Virus record (IMG/VR): IMGVR_UViG_3300044655_000392 | Span: 1-23,642 of that record | DNA length: 23,642 nucleotides | Direction: 5' to 3' (one strand) | Source of the DNA: a virus | Shown: positions 15,394-23,559 of the stretch, in pieces | Numbering within the stretch: position 1 is the first letter of the stretch | How the letters are laid out: each line of letters begins with the position of its first letter | Notes under the pieces: model-generated | Seen by the model: the letters and a program-made list of their open reading frames with translations, nothing else | Told to the model about the DNA's origin: nothing | Database searches by the model: none | Translations under genes and position numbers: made by a program

Positions 15394-15948
15394 TTAAAGT
15401 TCCTTTATATTAGCAGAAGTTTGATGAGGGCATACTCCACCGTTTTTATGTTTTCCGACTTGACAGTTCATACATAATACTTGGTATCCCGAAGGAAACT
15501 TATTTTTACGGAGCCAAAGATAAAATGCTGTTCCACTTCCGTGGTATAGCCCAGCTTTTCGTTCTTCAGCGCCGTTATTATGTATATGATCTATCGATAA
15601 AAACATAGATTCAGATTCACCGCAACAAGCACAAACGTATCCACCATAAGCGGTAAATACTTCATTTCTGCATTTATCTTGACTGCGTTTGGTTTTAGCT
15701 GCTTCCATTGCCCTAAAATCTGCAATTTCTTCAGGTGAGCCATTCGCTATCATTCTATTACGCGAATCACGTTTATGCTGTCGGTCTTTATCCCGATTTG
15801 CATCTCGCCAATCGCGCATGCGTTGGTTAACCTTATCCCGATTTCGTTCTCTGTATCTTGCTGCCGCTTCTCTATTGCGTTCCCGCTTTAGGTCTTCGGC
15901 ATCTTGATACGAAGATGCCATCATATATTTTTTATCTGAATTATCCAT
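15394..15948 (-). CDS. HNH homing-type endonuclease between scaffold and coat genes
   Basis: This 184-residue protein has a highly basic N-terminal half made of imperfect repeats of the RYRERNRDKVNQRMRDW type (about residues 22-65), probably DNA-contacting. The HNH nuclease core is at about 104-176: C106-x-x-C109, D120-H121 in LSIDHIHNNG, C159-x-N161-C162, H167 and C173-P-H. Zinc-binding pairs and the H-N-H residues are present, so it is likely active. It is wedged between scaffold and coat genes, ending one base before the coat ATG. Free-standing HNH genes in such places are usually homing endonucleases that spread by copying themselves into a cut allele. Confidence 0.85.
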   Translation of the reverse strand: MDNSDKKYMMASSYQDAEDLKRERNREAAARYRERNRDKVNQRMRDWRDANRDKDRQHKRDSRNRMIANGSPEEIADFRAMEAAKTKRSQDKCRNEVFTAYGGYVCACCGESESMFLSIDHIHNNGAEERKAGLYHGSGTAFYLWLRKNKFPSGYQVLCMNCQVGKHKNGGVCPHQTSANIKEL

Positions 15949-18216: not shown

Positions 18217-20426
18217 TATATTTGTCCTTCGGGTGGCATCATTGGTTGTTCAGGTTGCATTTGTTCTTCAGGCATCATGCCTTCAGGTTGTTCCATCATT
18301 TCGTCAGGCATTTCTCTGCTTGGCGATTCGCCAATTAAGTCACCGCTGTCCATCATGCCGTGAACTGTACCCATAACGATGTCTTGGATTTGTTCAGGTG
18401 ACATGCTTGCCTGCACTGCGCTGATACGTTTAGTTTCAGCGTCGTATGCTTTAATGTTAGCCTCTTGTTCTTTTATTGCCATGTCTTGCGCTTCCATAGA
18501 CTTGCTGACGTTTTGCAACATGCCGTGTAATTGGTCTAGTTCTTGGCCCATAGCTTCAAGTTGTTGCTGTGCAGCTTGCAATGCTGGGTCTTCGTCGGCA
18601 TCGCTTAGTAGTTTAGGATCAATAGTCTTAGCAAAGCGTTTAGCCATCTCTTGTGCGCCAGGCCAGTCCATGTTTTTAACGAATAAATCGCCAGCCACTT
18701 GCCACAATTGTGGGTTGCCTTGCAATAGTTGGCTCATGGCATCAAGTGACTCTTGACGTTTAGTCATGTAGCTTGGGCCAGTCGATACGCATACATCGTA
18801 CTTACCAACGCTAGGATTGTAGATTTTTTCAATCACAATGCCTGACTCGTCAACAATTTTCTTCACTGGCTCCTCTTGTGATGGATTAATTTTAGCCCGT
18901 TTCACTTCGCCATCTACACCAATAATACGAGCAATACGCTCTGTATCGTAAATTTTAGGTATCATGTCCACTAATTGACGTCCACAGTGACGTATAGCAC
19001 GCGCTAAATTGTCAACATAGTGGTATGTGCCTGTGTCGCCTTGTTTTTCACGCGCTAAGATGGCACGGCCTGAGCGTTCGTTACTTGTAGCCCCTAAACT
19101 GGAGTCGTATTGACCAGTTGAGGACTTAATATCGTCAGATGCACCGGCTTTAGCCTGTAATAGACCGCTAGACGCCATAGGCGGTTGAGCGCGTTGTGGT
19201 AATGGCAATACCGCACCAGCACCGTCTGTTACATCAGGATTAACCTCTAAATACGGCCAGTTTGTCGTGTTGGCAGTCTTCCATTGTGTCTCGTAGCCCT
19301 CAAATTGACCGCCGTAACCTATGAATGGCGCTTTTGGTGCCAGTGCCAACATCTCGGCTTCTTGTGAAACCCAATAGTTGTACATACGTTGTGCGTCTTT
19401 TGCGTTACGAATCAAGCCTGACACGTATAAACGGCCATCTACTTCGTATTCGTTACCTACAACACGGATAACAGGTATAAATTTACCTGCCCAATCTTGT
19501 TCTTCTAGCACTTCAAAGCCGTTAGTTTTGAGCCATTTGACTTTTTTAACGTCTGCCATGCGTGATTTAAGCGGTTTTAAGCCTAAAGCCTTCAATTCTT
19601 TGTCTTCACGGCTGCCTTCTACGGCGCTCATGTTGCCCTGGTATAGATTTAGCTTGGTTGGCGTATGCTCGTAGTAAAAATACTCAGCAACACGCACTGT
19701 GTTCTCTGTCAACCACTGACTTAATGAGGAGTCGCCCACACCTTGCTGCATCATAGACGATATTGGCGCGGCATCAGGGAACTGACGCTCGTATTCTGCC
19801 TTCGTCATGTCTTCTGTGACAAAACACCACTCGGCATCGCTGCCGCATGGGTCTTGTATTGTAGGATCCATATAAACGCTAAAGGAATTGCGGATACGGC
19901 CAATGTATAGGTCTTGGTCAAATGAATTGTCGTCGCAATATTTAGTGAGTACACGGATGTAGCCTTCACCATAGGTGACTTGGTTTTCACATGCTGTGTC
20001 GTATGCGACATCTGCATCTGAAATATACTCAATATGCCTGATCACGCCCTCAAATATCTCCGCGACCTCTACGTCAGCGTTATCATCTACAGGGATTACC
20101 TTCACCGAAGGGCGATTTTGGCGTTGTTCATTAGTAACTTGATGAACATGTTGCGGTAACTTATTGATTGTTAAGCATGGTCTTGCATTGATAGTTTGAC
20201 CTTGAACTGAACCGCGGGTAGCCAGTACGTCCGCAGGCCATTGCCATTGGTTGTCCGGTGAGCCTGCCTCGAAGCGTAAGTCATCTAGCTCGTCTTCACG
20301 GCTCTCTGAATACGCAGAAACCGCCATAGTAAAGCGGCTTCGCATCGTTGCAAGCATGTCTTTTTTGTCGTTAGGCTTATTAGCACCTTCAGCGACAACC
20401 CCAACGGTGGTCATGTCATCATTCAT
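18216..20426 (-). CDS. Portal protein, P22-type
   Basis: This 736-residue protein is close in length to the P22 gp1 portal (725). Recognisable regions are SAYSESREDELDDLRFEAGS near the N-terminus, then LTINKLPQHVHQVTNEQRQN, and GEGYIRVLTKYCDD. Later there is SSTGQYDSSLGATSNERSGR and a helical C-terminal region (about 620-690) with coiled-coil character. The last 35 residues are Met/Glu/Pro/Gln-rich (EGMMPEEQMQPEQPMMPPEG), a flexible tail. The portal is the dodecameric vertex through which DNA is packed. The start overlaps the GroES gene by 8 nt. Confidence 0.9.
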   Translation of the reverse strand: MNDDMTTVGVVAEGANKPNDKKDMLATMRSRFTMAVSAYSESREDELDDLRFEAGSPDNQWQWPADVLATRGSVQGQTINARPCLTINKLPQHVHQVTNEQRQNRPSVKVIPVDDNADVEVAEIFEGVIRHIEYISDADVAYDTACENQVTYGEGYIRVLTKYCDDNSFDQDLYIGRIRNSFSVYMDPTIQDPCGSDAEWCFVTEDMTKAEYERQFPDAAPISSMMQQGVGDSSLSQWLTENTVRVAEYFYYEHTPTKLNLYQGNMSAVEGSREDKELKALGLKPLKSRMADVKKVKWLKTNGFEVLEEQDWAGKFIPVIRVVGNEYEVDGRLYVSGLIRNAKDAQRMYNYWVSQEAEMLALAPKAPFIGYGGQFEGYETQWKTANTTNWPYLEVNPDVTDGAGAVLPLPQRAQPPMASSGLLQAKAGASDDIKSSTGQYDSSLGATSNERSGRAILAREKQGDTGTYHYVDNLARAIRHCGRQLVDMIPKIYDTERIARIIGVDGEVKRAKINPSQEEPVKKIVDESGIVIEKIYNPSVGKYDVCVSTGPSYMTKRQESLDAMSQLLQGNPQLWQVAGDLFVKNMDWPGAQEMAKRFAKTIDPKLLSDADEDPALQAAQQQLEAMGQELDQLHGMLQNVSKSMEAQDMAIKEQEANIKAYDAETKRISAVQASMSPEQIQDIVMGTVHGMMDSGDLIGESPSREMPDEMMEQPEGMMPEEQMQPEQPMMPPEGQI

Positions 20427-20706
20427 TTAATATTCCGATCACGTCTTTTTCGTTCATAAGAAGATAGTCTTCGTCTTCGTATTTAAACTTCTGTCCTGAA
20501 TACTCACCGAACAGTATTGTGTCACCTACTTTAACTGTCATCGCTCTGACCGTGCCATTATCTAATATGGCGCCCTGGCCTGCTGCAACAATCACACCTT
20601 CAAACTTCTTCTCTGCTTGCTTGGCCAGTACAATGCCACTGGCCGTTGTTAGTTCTTCTTCTTTTTGCTTTACTACAATTCGTTCACCGAAAGGTTTTAA
20701 TTTCAT
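20419..20706 (-). CDS. groES: Phage-encoded GroES-like co-chaperonin
   Basis: This 95-residue protein is full GroES length. It begins MKLKPFGERIVVKQKEEELT and shows the mobile-loop region (TTASGIVLAKQAEKKFEGVI, with the IVL that docks on GroEL), then VGDTILFGEYSGQKFKYEDE and YLLMNEKDVIGILNE. These are the Cpn10 landmarks. A phage GroES can substitute for the host's to help host GroEL fold coat or other phage proteins. It is encoded right before the portal and overlaps the 46-residue gene as ATGA. No GroEL is present in the window. Confidence 0.9.
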   Translation of the reverse strand: MKLKPFGERIVVKQKEEELTTASGIVLAKQAEKKFEGVIVAAGQGAILDNGTVRAMTVKVGDTILFGEYSGQKFKYEDEDYLLMNEKDVIGILNE

Positions 20707-20845: not shown

Positions 20846-22375
20846 CTAACTCCCCATCCAAGAGCTGGATGCTCCGCTACCATTAGCATACGACTTACGG
20901 GGCGCGTTGTCAACCCTATATTCTCGATGGGCTACTGGGAACGCAAATGTCACGCATAACGCATCGGCTGCGTCCGGGCTTGCCATGCCCCTGGCCTTCA
21001 TCTCTTTCTTACCTTCTAAGAATATCGTCCCGCTGCTGTTAGGCTTTTTCATCGGGCCTGTCAAGTCCGATTTTAATTTCCTATCCTCCGGTATGCTGGC
21101 GCTGCGTAACCACTCCCGCATCGCGCCCCACATCTCGGCCCGCTTGTTGCCCCACATTATCGAGTTCTTAGCCCGTGATCCGAAGTTCACACCGCGCACC
21201 TTGTACCGTTGCTCGGTTAGCCTGTCTAATATCCCGTACCCTAAGCCCCCCTCATCGATGACGGTCATTACTGGTTTGTATTCTTCTATGGCCTCAATTA
21301 CCCGGCCAACGACAGTCATTGTGTCCTCGCCTTGGTAGCGTTTTATGGCCACGATGTCACGGCCTTGGCGAACGACGATGACCGTGCTATCCGCCCCGCC
21401 TCTTGCAGGGTCGACCCCGATAACAATCGGCGCAGACGTATCCTTATATCTCTCACGTTTGAAAGCGTCCTCGACCAATGTCGGACTGATAAACTGGTCT
21501 TCACCTGCCGATGGAAACTCACCGTATACCTCGACCCGCGCCTGTGCAGAGTCTTCACCATACTCGGCAATAATCTGTTCATATACCGCTTTATCCGTAT
21601 CCTCGACCTGTCTCGCATCAATTTGTCGTCCATGCCAAAAGTCCCGTTTAGAGTTAAAGCACTCAAAGAAATACCCTTGGTTGCGACGCGGGTTGCTGAA
21701 CGCAAACCAATACCGATCTAATATGTTCTCTGTAAAGAAACCTGCGCCCACTGACCATATCGTGTCAGGTATACCGCTTGCCTCGTCAAATATCAACATC
21801 ATCCCGTCGTGGTTGTGGACACCGGCGTAACTGTCAGGATTCTCCTCCGACCACAGTTTGCCTTCTGCCGCCCAGTACCGCGTACCTTTTTTCAAGTCAC
21901 GCTCCACTAGCTCACACACCCATTTCGCCGGCACCAGCTTGGTCGCACTGATTTCCCACCAGTGTGAGTTTATTATCATGGCCTGCCACTTAGTCAACTC
22001 ACCCCAGGTGACCGACCTTAGTTGTGACTCACTGTTGGCGCTGACGACAACACTGCTGCCTATCCGTGTCGATAACATCCACATTATGAGCCATGACACT
22101 AGCGCCGACTTCCCAATACCCCGTCCGCTGGAGACCGCCTCACGCAGTGTCGACATGTCGACCTCGCCTCGGTTGTCCTTAATGTGCTTGGCTATTGTCC
22201 TTAACACCTCGCGCTGCCAGGTGCGTGGCCCTTTGAACTTAGCTAGTGGCGTGTTAGGTTGGCCCCACGGGAACGCGAACAGCACGAACGCTTCAGGGTC
22301 GTCCGCAACACGCGGATCCCACAGCCTTGACATGAGGAGTTGTTCTTCGTCCGAACTATATATAGGTAGTTGCAC
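20846..22375 (-). CDS. terL: Terminase large subunit
   Basis: This 509-residue protein has an N-terminal packaging ATPase: Walker A at 84-90 (GRGIGKS), the VVVSANSESQLRSV segment, and Walker B at 193-198 (MLIFDE). A C-terminal nuclease starts at G320-V-D322-PARGGADST, with further acidic residues in VIDEGGLGYG and near the end (DAADALCVTF). It powers DNA packing and cuts concatemers. The start is a GTG at 22375, 5 nt after the previous stop, with AGGTAAGG upstream; the first ATG, at residue 15, has no ribosome site. Confidence 0.93.
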   Translation of the reverse strand: MQLPIYSSDEEQLLMSRLWDPRVADDPEAFVLFAFPWGQPNTPLAKFKGPRTWQREVLRTIAKHIKDNRGEVDMSTLREAVSSGRGIGKSALVSWLIMWMLSTRIGSSVVVSANSESQLRSVTWGELTKWQAMIINSHWWEISATKLVPAKWVCELVERDLKKGTRYWAAEGKLWSEENPDSYAGVHNHDGMMLIFDEASGIPDTIWSVGAGFFTENILDRYWFAFSNPRRNQGYFFECFNSKRDFWHGRQIDARQVEDTDKAVYEQIIAEYGEDSAQARVEVYGEFPSAGEDQFISPTLVEDAFKRERYKDTSAPIVIGVDPARGGADSTVIVVRQGRDIVAIKRYQGEDTMTVVGRVIEAIEEYKPVMTVIDEGGLGYGILDRLTEQRYKVRGVNFGSRAKNSIMWGNKRAEMWGAMREWLRSASIPEDRKLKSDLTGPMKKPNSSGTIFLEGKKEMKARGMASPDAADALCVTFAFPVAHREYRVDNAPRKSYANGSGASSSWMGS

Positions 22376-22380
22376 TTACC

Positions 22381-22797
22381 TTACCTGCGGTTATATAACG
22401 TAAATAAGCTATTGCGTATGCCGGTAGGCATTAAATTATTAACATTGTTTTGATTGTTTTGATTGTTTCGGTTGTTAAGCCAAGCAAAAGGATTTGTGTA
22501 TCTTCTGTTATCCATCATTTGCTGTCTAATTTGTTGCAAGTATTGTTCCATTTGTGGGCTTCTTTGAATCGGTATTGATCCAAACATAGCTCTACCCATT
22601 TGCGGGGCATTACCGCCCATATTAGCTTGAGGTGCTTGTGGCGCTTGAGGTGCTTGTGGAGCTTGAGGCGCGTATTGCTCTTCTTCATCTTGATCGGGTG
22701 AATAAGGCCTATTGTAGAAGGGCGATTGTCGATTCTGCCCAAAATTCATGTTAGGTTGCATTGGAGATTGAAATTGTTTAAACCCTAGATTAGCCAT
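22381..22797 (-). CDS. Pro/Gln/Asn-rich low-complexity protein between terS and terL
   Basis: This 138-residue protein is low in complexity: an N/P/Q/M-rich start (SPMQPNMNFGQNRQSPFYNR), acidic DQDEEEQ, then five APQ-type units (YAPQAPQAPQAPQAPQANMG) encoded by an alternating 9-nt repeat at about 22625-22672. A short region (MEQYLQQIRQQMMDNRRYTN) could form a helix, and then comes an Asn tract (NNRNNQNNQNNVNNLM). It is likely disordered. It overlaps terS by 8 nt and ends 5 nt before terL, so it is made with the terminase. I cannot assign a function. Confidence 0.6.
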   Translation of the reverse strand: MANLGFKQFQSPMQPNMNFGQNRQSPFYNRPYSPDQDEEEQYAPQAPQAPQAPQAPQANMGGNAPQMGRAMFGSIPIQRSPQMEQYLQQIRQQMMDNRRYTNPFAWLNNRNNQNNQNNVNNLMPTGIRNSLFTLYNRR

Positions 22798-23194
22798 TGT
22801 CCACCACCGTCCCTTCTATAATTCTTGATTGAGCCTCTGCTAAGGCCTGAGTAATACTTATCTTTTGGTACACATCCACACTGATCTCGGTCTTGGCCGT
22901 CCACGCGTGTGCATGCTGTAGCACGGCTAGTGCCGACTTAGCGTCACCGTCCTTGGCTGACTTGATTAACACCTGGGCCATCTCCAGTTCACCGTCTGCC
23001 TTACCTTTCTGCGCCGCCATCTCCGCCACGGGGTCTAGCTGGCACAGTTGCCGGTACTCGGACGGCAACATGCCCGCAGCGAGGGCCAAAGAGTCATTCT
23101 TCAGACCCAGCTTGGCTGCGTCGTATATTTTCTGTAAACGCGATTCGGTGGCTTTTACCTCGCGTGGCGTAAAAGGTATCGATAGGAATGTCAT
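22790..23194 (-). CDS. terS: Terminase small subunit
   Basis: This 134-residue protein is helical: FTPREVKATESRLQKIYDAA, then a DSLALAAGMLPSEYRQLCQL segment resembling a helix-turn-helix DNA-recognition unit, then a charged oligomerisation helix (AEMAAQKGKADGELEMAQVL) and LVLQHAHAWTAKTEI-type end. Small terminase subunits bind the packaging site and stimulate TerL. Identification rests on length, helical DNA-binding N-terminus and place directly before terL. Its ATG lies only 6 nt from a near-consensus -10 box. No ribosome-binding site is visible, so the mRNA may be leaderless. Confidence 0.8.
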   Translation of the reverse strand: MTFLSIPFTPREVKATESRLQKIYDAAKLGLKNDSLALAAGMLPSEYRQLCQLDPVAEMAAQKGKADGELEMAQVLIKSAKDGDAKSALAVLQHAHAWTAKTEISVDVYQKISITQALAEAQSRIIEGTVVDNG

Positions 23195-23301: not shown

Positions 23302-23349
23302 GTCGGCTTAACCGCCCCGACTTTATTGTACGACTTTGAATAAAAGTCG
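23302..23349 (-). other. Two adjacent hairpins between pqqA and terS
   Basis: One perfect inverted repeat pairs CGACTTT with AAAGTCG (23331-23337 with 23343-23349, 5-nt loop). Nearby GTCGG (23302-23306) pairs with CCGAC (23317-23321). No T-run follows on the minus strand, so they are poor intrinsic terminators. They may protect the 3' end of a short pqqA transcript. A further GTAACG/CGTTAC pairing lies just downstream toward terS. Confidence 0.45.
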
Positions 23350-23362
23350 CAACTATTTTACA

Positions 23363-23434
23363 TTACTTGTTCATTACGTACATTGTCACTTCAAAACCGA
23401 AACGCATTTCTGTAGCTGCTGGTGTTGTCCACAT
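23363..23434 (-). CDS. pqqA: PqqA, pyrroloquinoline quinone precursor peptide (23 aa)
   Basis: This 23-residue ORF starts MWTTPAATEMRFGFEVTMY and ends VMNK. It carries the PqqA signature: an N-terminal W and P, then R-x-G-x-E-V-T-x-Y, with Glu15 and Tyr19 in the exact E-x-x-x-Y spacing that PqqE cross-links to make PQQ. Length and residue positions match the Klebsiella peptide of 23 residues. An AAGGAC ribosome site lies about 9 nt upstream of the ATG. No pqqB-E genes follow; terS follows instead. PQQ is the cofactor of methanol and glucose dehydrogenases, so the peptide could feed host PQQ enzymes. It might alternatively be a host orphan copy next to a prophage. Confidence 0.88.
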   Translation of the reverse strand: MWTTPAATEMRFGFEVTMYVMNK

Positions 23435-23457
23435 GATCGTAGTCCTTAATTGATGAT

Positions 23458-23471
23458 AAGCAATATTGCTT
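23458..23471. promoter_or_regulatory. 14-bp perfect palindrome upstream of pqqA
   Basis: AAGCAATATTGCTT is a perfect 14-bp palindrome about 24 bases upstream of the pqqA ATG. It could be an operator or an mRNA 5' element. No convincing -35/-10 pair could be placed beside it: the best, TTAACA followed by GACAAG at 17 bases, is weak. Confidence 0.4.
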
Positions 23472-23559
23472 GTCTGTAATATTCTGCCGATTGTTAAACA
23501 CTAGCCATAGAGATAATCATGATTTTGCTTTTTGCTAGTGGGCTGTTTGCATGTTGCAT

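Follow-up and report, generated by a model that had tools for sequence, protein, structure and literature searches.

The window analysed here, which is the whole of a linear IMG/VR record (23,642 bases), carries a reading frame of only 72 nt ahead of a set of viral packaging genes, and this locus raised the question of whether the frame is a true pqqA gene, whether it belongs to the virus, and what a virus would gain from it.

The pqqA reading frame and its surroundings

The initial annotation had proposed a pqqA gene from a set of conserved residues and a good ribosome site, and all of these were recovered: W2, P5, R11, G13, E15, V16, T17 and Y19 were in place, E15 and Y19 had the E-x-x-x-Y spacing of PqqA, and the frame, with 23 residues and the Shine-Dalgarno sequence AAGGA, lay within the range expected of PqqA (about 22-29 residues with a ribosome site). 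The Pfam profile for PqqA, PF08042 (curated cut-off, 21.1 bits), scored 38.1 bits (E 7e-11) against the window record and 40.3 bits against the peptide alone, covering profile positions 1-19 of 19. The same Pfam search of 14 control genomes gave no match, and a DNA pattern for PqqA matched once in the window versus 0.00 times in 100 dinucleotide shuffles. PHROGs gave no PqqA match, and no solved PqqA structure matched the window peptide in sequence. The plus-strand reading of the interval was meaningless and was rejected. Judged by sequence, the minus-strand ORF is a real, full-length PqqA under selection.

The window comes from a podovirus whose packaging and head genes are of P22 type, comprising those for the large terminase, portal, scaffold, major head protein and head-closure protein, together with an endolysin gene. 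As had been claimed, pqqA lies upstream of the packaging operon and shares the direction of the putative terS and of terL, all on the minus strand, with a gap of 168 bases to the first gene of the operon. No ORF for pqqB-E was recognised in the window, in line with the earlier claim. The coordinates of the features are collected in Table 1.

Table 1. Features of the pqqA locus in the window
Feature	Coordinates	Strand	Remarks
pqqA	23363..23434	(-)	23 codons, MWTTPAATEMRFGFEVTMYVMNK; E15 and Y19 are the residues cross-linked by PqqE
Shine-Dalgarno AAGGA	23443..23447	(-)	8 bases ahead of the pqqA ATG; read from the sequence
Perfect palindrome AAGCAATATTGCTT	23458..23471	(-)	Interval between promoter region and Shine-Dalgarno sequence
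Sigma-70-like promoter candidate	23453..23480	(-)	ATTACA-16-TATCAT, 9/12; weak, uncertain
Hairpin just 3' of pqqA	23331..23349		CGACTTT/AAAGTCG stem; T tail on the plus strand only
Putative terS, first gene of the packaging operon	22790..23194	(-)	Assigned by position; no Pfam or PHROG match
terL, terminase large subunit	20846..22375	(-)	phrog_2, E 4e-45
G-rich intergenic element TGTTTGCATTTTGCATGGGGGGGTAGGGCCTTGGGG...GGTGTCAGAAGAA	23565..23642		Contig end; kept in L129, L131, L132, L133, L037 and L135

Several other genes of the window were observed in passing. A Q/N/P-rich ORF of 138 residues (22381-22797, minus strand) separates terS and terL, unlike in the relative L132, where terS directly adjoins terL. 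A GroES/Cpn10 co-chaperonin gene (20419-20706, minus strand; PF00166, 98 bits) lies between terL and the portal gene, and an HNH endonuclease-like gene (15394-15948, minus strand; phrog_2255), possibly a homing endonuclease, is flanked by the scaffold and major head protein genes.

As the window ends 208 bases past pqqA, relatives were used to read the DNA beyond it. The INPHARED collection held no near relative of the whole window. A scan with TerL gave 80 loci among the matches listed, and pqqA was present in all seven loci in which TerL was at least 95% identical and upstream DNA was available, lying 541-670 bases upstream of terL and just ahead of terS, so that the expectation of the peptide at the same place in related phages was borne out. 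In 28 further records pqqA was found nowhere; 27 of them belonged to a class with TerL identities of 79-83%, and the other was a close fragment (G008, locus L136, TerL 95%) that begins only 458 bases ahead of terL. As relatives of the 79-83% class lack pqqA, the wider phage lineage can do without it. Aligning the close relatives showed the codons of pqqA to be kept and the DNA on either side to be replaced or rearranged. The DNA separating pqqA from the G-rich element was hypervariable among them, and the element itself may be a cos, pac or promoter element.

The flank past pqqA could be read in L132 (record G004, 38.2 kb). Leftward small genes were followed by a gene for a DNA polymerase III beta-clamp-like (sliding-clamp) protein (PF02767, 48.5 bits) and then by genes for DNA-polymerase-like and primase/helicase-like proteins; a helicase, a methyltransferase and a nuclease were encoded elsewhere in the record, all except the clamp being recognised by eye from translations. 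No pqqB-E was present in the DNA beyond pqqA, and the stretches translated, which covered part of the record, contained no integrase recognisable by eye. The gene is thus bordered by phage genes on both sides, by the head, portal and terL genes seen in the window and, in this close relative, by replication genes past it. That the contig of the window might end in host chromosome was ruled out by relatives running into phage replication genes; the flank past pqqA is phage DNA, and the pqqA of the window is phage-borne, as initially suspected.

Recurrence, host and selection of viral pqqA

The 23-residue peptide was used as a tblastn query against INPHARED (50,697 phage records), and ten genuine phages were found to carry pqqA: P19250A, ctXG6705, MEP301, Venkman, MEP402, MEP401 and four Melnitz strains. 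The PqqA of P19250A was 100% identical to that of the window. Every genuine match with a known host was a phage of Methylophilales/Methylophilaceae. None of the ten records names the gene pqqA; in those opened it was unannotated or lay under an antisense hypothetical ORF (ctXG6705, Melnitz), most likely because it is only 72 nt long, and it goes unmentioned in the papers that describe MEP301, MEP401/402, Venkman and Melnitz. Two matches labelled "Acinetobacter phage" MD-2021a were rejected, as the one opened (L128, CAKLQF020000010.1) proved to be a whole-genome contig of a bacterium in which the pqqABCDE operon is complete.

IMG/VR contained the exact window peptide on at least 119 contigs and W2-type pqqA on at least 120. 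The exact peptide made up 21 of the 120 W2 matches listed, which by rough extrapolation would correspond to at least several hundred IMG/VR contigs. The suspicion that copies had been widely missed thus proved justified by both the IMG/VR contigs and the isolate records. A second class of viral PqqA (L358-L477), mostly of 24 residues and starting with M-x-W, was also found on at least 120 IMG/VR contigs and includes types unlike those of Methylophilaceae, such as MKWETPEYNDIRFGFEVTMYINNK. As the collections were sampled, the viral and host counts are those among the matches listed. Genes for pqqB-E were found near none of the viral pqqA copies (0/157 and 0/120 loci), in contrast to 68 of 118 bacterial loci.

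The TerL proteins of the window, P19250A, MEP402, MEP301 and the Venkman/ctXG6705 group gave no alignment of 200 residues at 1e-6, the sole similarity among them being that of the window to Venkman (24%, 3e-4), and the proteomes of these phages had few or no proteins in common, except for Venkman with ctXG6705. With Melnitz, which is T4-like, these five groups amount to at least six unrelated lineages carrying pqqA. Venkman (L125) and ctXG6705 (L123) have 20-21 proteins in common, and a megablast comparison of the first 24 kb of Venkman with ctXG6705 returned only an 85-base stretch over pqqA (90.6% identical), which reflects either recent exchange or a strong constraint on the DNA.

The codons of viral pqqA are under purifying selection, with a dN/dS of about 0.1. 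The 157 viral copies listed comprised 139 distinct DNA versions and 58 peptides, nearly all of 23-24 residues. Third codon positions were three to four times more variable than first and second positions, and dN/dS was 0.09, or 0.12 on codons unconstrained by the search pattern. R11 and F14 were invariant in the 139 versions though they lie outside the main search pattern. E15 and Y19 were likewise invariant, and a scan that left both positions free still returned E and Y in every copy; that they never vary is what would be required of a PqqE substrate.

The peptide also points to the host. An A-T-E-M-R signature was found in 29 of 30 copies from Methylophilaceae or from unnamed betaproteobacterial/Nitrosomonadales MAGs and in none of 55 copies from Pseudomonas, Marinobacter, Methylophaga and others, so that the variant in the window is, at the level of sequence, diagnostic of Methylophilaceae. 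Most viral versions (127/139) were nearest to the Methylophilaceae-type group. A difference of 3 in 72 nt separates the pqqA of the window from Methylotenera-type copies, and Methylotenera-type genomes encode a peptide identical to the phage one.

Among 150 sampled Methylophilaceae genomes, pqqA was found in 149 (mean 4.2 copies, maximum 12), with at least two copies in 141, and pqqE exceeded the cut-off in 140, mostly with one such match. The host therefore tends to have several precursor genes per modifying enzyme. For Methylovorus MP688, with its five pqqA copies, PqqA availability was reported to be a rate-determining step (Ge et al. 2015, as cited in PMC11317620). A methylotroph with five differently expressed pqqA copies has also been described (PMC9851590), and in Acetobacter PQQ rose by 29% when pqqAB was overexpressed (PMC7936290).

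Viral pqqA as an expression unit

Viral pqqA was antisense to both neighbours at 54 of the 140 loci at which both were visible, versus 3.3% of the other genes there. In the 46 gaps with an antisense upstream neighbour, TATAAT occurred in 29 (expected 8.5) and GTATAA in 22 (expected 2.9), the expectations being derived from mononucleotide shuffles and therefore somewhat generous. The enrichment of this -10 type element was confined to gaps with an antisense upstream neighbour, and no enrichment of a classical sigma-70 promoter (-35 plus -10) was found over all viral copies. An SD-like sequence was present at the same spot in viral pqqA copies as in the window, and strong terminator-like hairpins followed 33% of them versus 0.8% of shuffles.

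The leader between the -10 element and the ribosome site was also structured. In 112 viral copies the longest stem averaged 5.8 pairs, versus 4.8 ± 0.1 in dinucleotide shuffles, and stems of at least 6 pairs were found in 50% of the copies versus 24% of the shuffles. No such excess was seen 50-86 bases upstream of viral pqqA, and it was weaker in bacterial copies. Within the window lineage the stems vary (AAGCAA/TTGCTT, TATACAC/GTGTATA, TACGCA/TGCGTA) and the hairpin persists. RNAalifold predicted no pairs on the aligned leaders, probably because stems of unlike sequence and length fail to align, and single folds compared with shuffles were used instead. The leader hairpin may serve as a stabiliser of the mRNA 5' end or as an operator.

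Phage morons are single inserted genes, often opposite to their neighbours, with a -10 element of their own and often a terminator. Viral pqqA as a group resembles them in being a single gene between phage genes, often antisense, with the enriched -10 type element and, in 33% of copies, the strong terminator-like hairpin described above. The window lineage differs in that its pqqA has the same direction as the late operon and a promoter that is only a candidate. The hairpin just 3' of the gene is not a clear pqqA terminator, because its T tail lies on the plus strand only; with the weak promoter and a hairpin that lacks a T tail on the pqqA strand, read-through into terS is possible.

Proposed role, alternatives and significance

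In the PQQ pathway, PqqE together with PqqD cross-links PqqA, processing and the steps of PqqB and PqqC follow, and one peptide is consumed per PQQ. As each PQQ costs one peptide, a phage would need to bring only the consumable part of the pathway. We consider it quite probable (roughly 0.85) that phage-borne pqqA is a substrate-dosage auxiliary metabolic gene, which supplies the consumable precursor of PQQ and so sustains host methanol dehydrogenase during infection. Extra PqqA peptide would be made by the phage in the infected cell, its Glu15 and Tyr19 would be cross-linked by the PqqD/PqqE of the host, and a host peptidase followed by PqqB and PqqC would complete PQQ, which would keep methanol dehydrogenase (XoxF/MxaF), and with it the flow of carbon and energy, going in infected Methylophilaceae. 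Established PQQ biochemistry leads us to infer that the phage gene is expressed during infection, that PqqE uses its product, that PQQ rises and that the phage benefits. As expected of an auxiliary metabolic gene, viral pqqA is a homologue of a host gene whose pathway is present in the host. As the host is already multi-copy for pqqA, the marginal benefit of a phage copy is not self-evident.

The peptide might instead be made and modified by PqqE but put to another use, in lanthanide binding or uptake, as a signal, or as a decoy for PqqD/PqqE. In M. extorquens the solubility of lanthanides affects orphan pqqA copies, which have been proposed to act in lanthanide uptake (PMC11317620), and a PqqA-annotated RiPP family is co-expressed near defence systems (PMC11118758). 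We regard such a use as improbable, as the phage peptide matches substrate copies of the host residue for residue and lacks none of the residues known to be required, and PqqA supply itself has been reported as limiting in the host family, according to the citation of Ge et al. given above. A decoy in particular should lose E15 or Y19, and its role is unlikely because no copy has lost these reactive residues.

Hosts hold many orphan pqqA copies open to chance capture, and the gene could be a small host fragment that has simply not yet been lost. This is contradicted by its occurrence in at least six unrelated lineages under purifying selection, and by its being intact amid replaced flanks in all seven close relatives, so that a neutral passenger seems very improbable. 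A bacterial origin of the DNA itself, either at the contig end of the window or through misclassified IMG/VR contigs, was suggested by the short stretch past pqqA and by the two INPHARED matches from bacterial contigs, one of which was opened. It is refuted by the complete cultured phage genomes that carry pqqA, and is at odds with the phage replication genes into which the relatives run and with the absence of pqqB-E from all 277 viral loci; its likelihood is negligible.

Part of this picture has precedents. A viral pqqA was already reported in the T4-like population VP_266 of Lake Baikal (Coutinho et al. 2020, PMC7678222), which resembles the present case in its viral PqqA precursor, its predicted Methylophilaceae host and the proposed support of methanol oxidation. 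VP_266 is, however, a single metagenomic population that also carries methanol dehydrogenase, whereas the window represents a P22-like podovirus in which no dehydrogenase gene was recognised, and pqqA here recurs across six or more unrelated lineages, among them cultured isolates in which it was missed by their authors. The genes pqqA, pqqD and pqqE appear in a 2026 list of auxiliary metabolic genes from a reservoir (PMC13188868). Orphan pqqA genes of Methylophilaceae encode the identical 23-residue peptide, often stand alone away from pqqBCDE (five copies in MP688, PMC11317620) and likewise add dosage of a rate-determining substrate, but they are chromosomal, whereas the phage copies lie in phage operons or in antisense stand-alone units.

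In the papers searched, no account of a recurrence of viral pqqA among phages was found. New here are the P22-like locus and the presence of the gene in the checked cultured methylophages, together with the tally of unrelated lineages, the test for selection and the description of a structured unit that stands alone. The psbA gene of cyanophages, which encodes the D1 protein, replaces a fast-consumed part of a host energy pathway and leaves the rest to the host. Phage pqqA would likewise supply the consumed part only, although psbA encodes a large membrane protein and PqqA is a precursor of 23 residues that turns into the cofactor itself.

The absence of a PHROG match and of a pqqA label in the isolate records marks an annotation blind spot for a recurrent, selected phage gene. 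That pqqA is present in six or more unrelated lineages suggests that PQQ supply is a bottleneck at which phages commonly aim, an idea open to direct test in the cultured phage-host pairs available for several of them (MEP301, Venkman, Melnitz). On balance we lean slightly towards a broader view, in which pqqA is a hallmark of phages of PQQ-dependent methylotrophs, an auxiliary metabolic gene that was acquired independently many times and delivers a consumable cofactor precursor in place of an enzyme, is transcribed from a -10 element of its own through a structured leader, and has been missed because a gene of 23 codons is too short for gene callers. The Methylophilaceae, with OM43, LD28/Methylopumilus and Methylotenera, rank among the major oxidisers of methanol in coastal waters and lakes. 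If this broader view is true, methanol oxidation in infected lake and coastal Methylophilaceae would commonly be under viral cofactor control.
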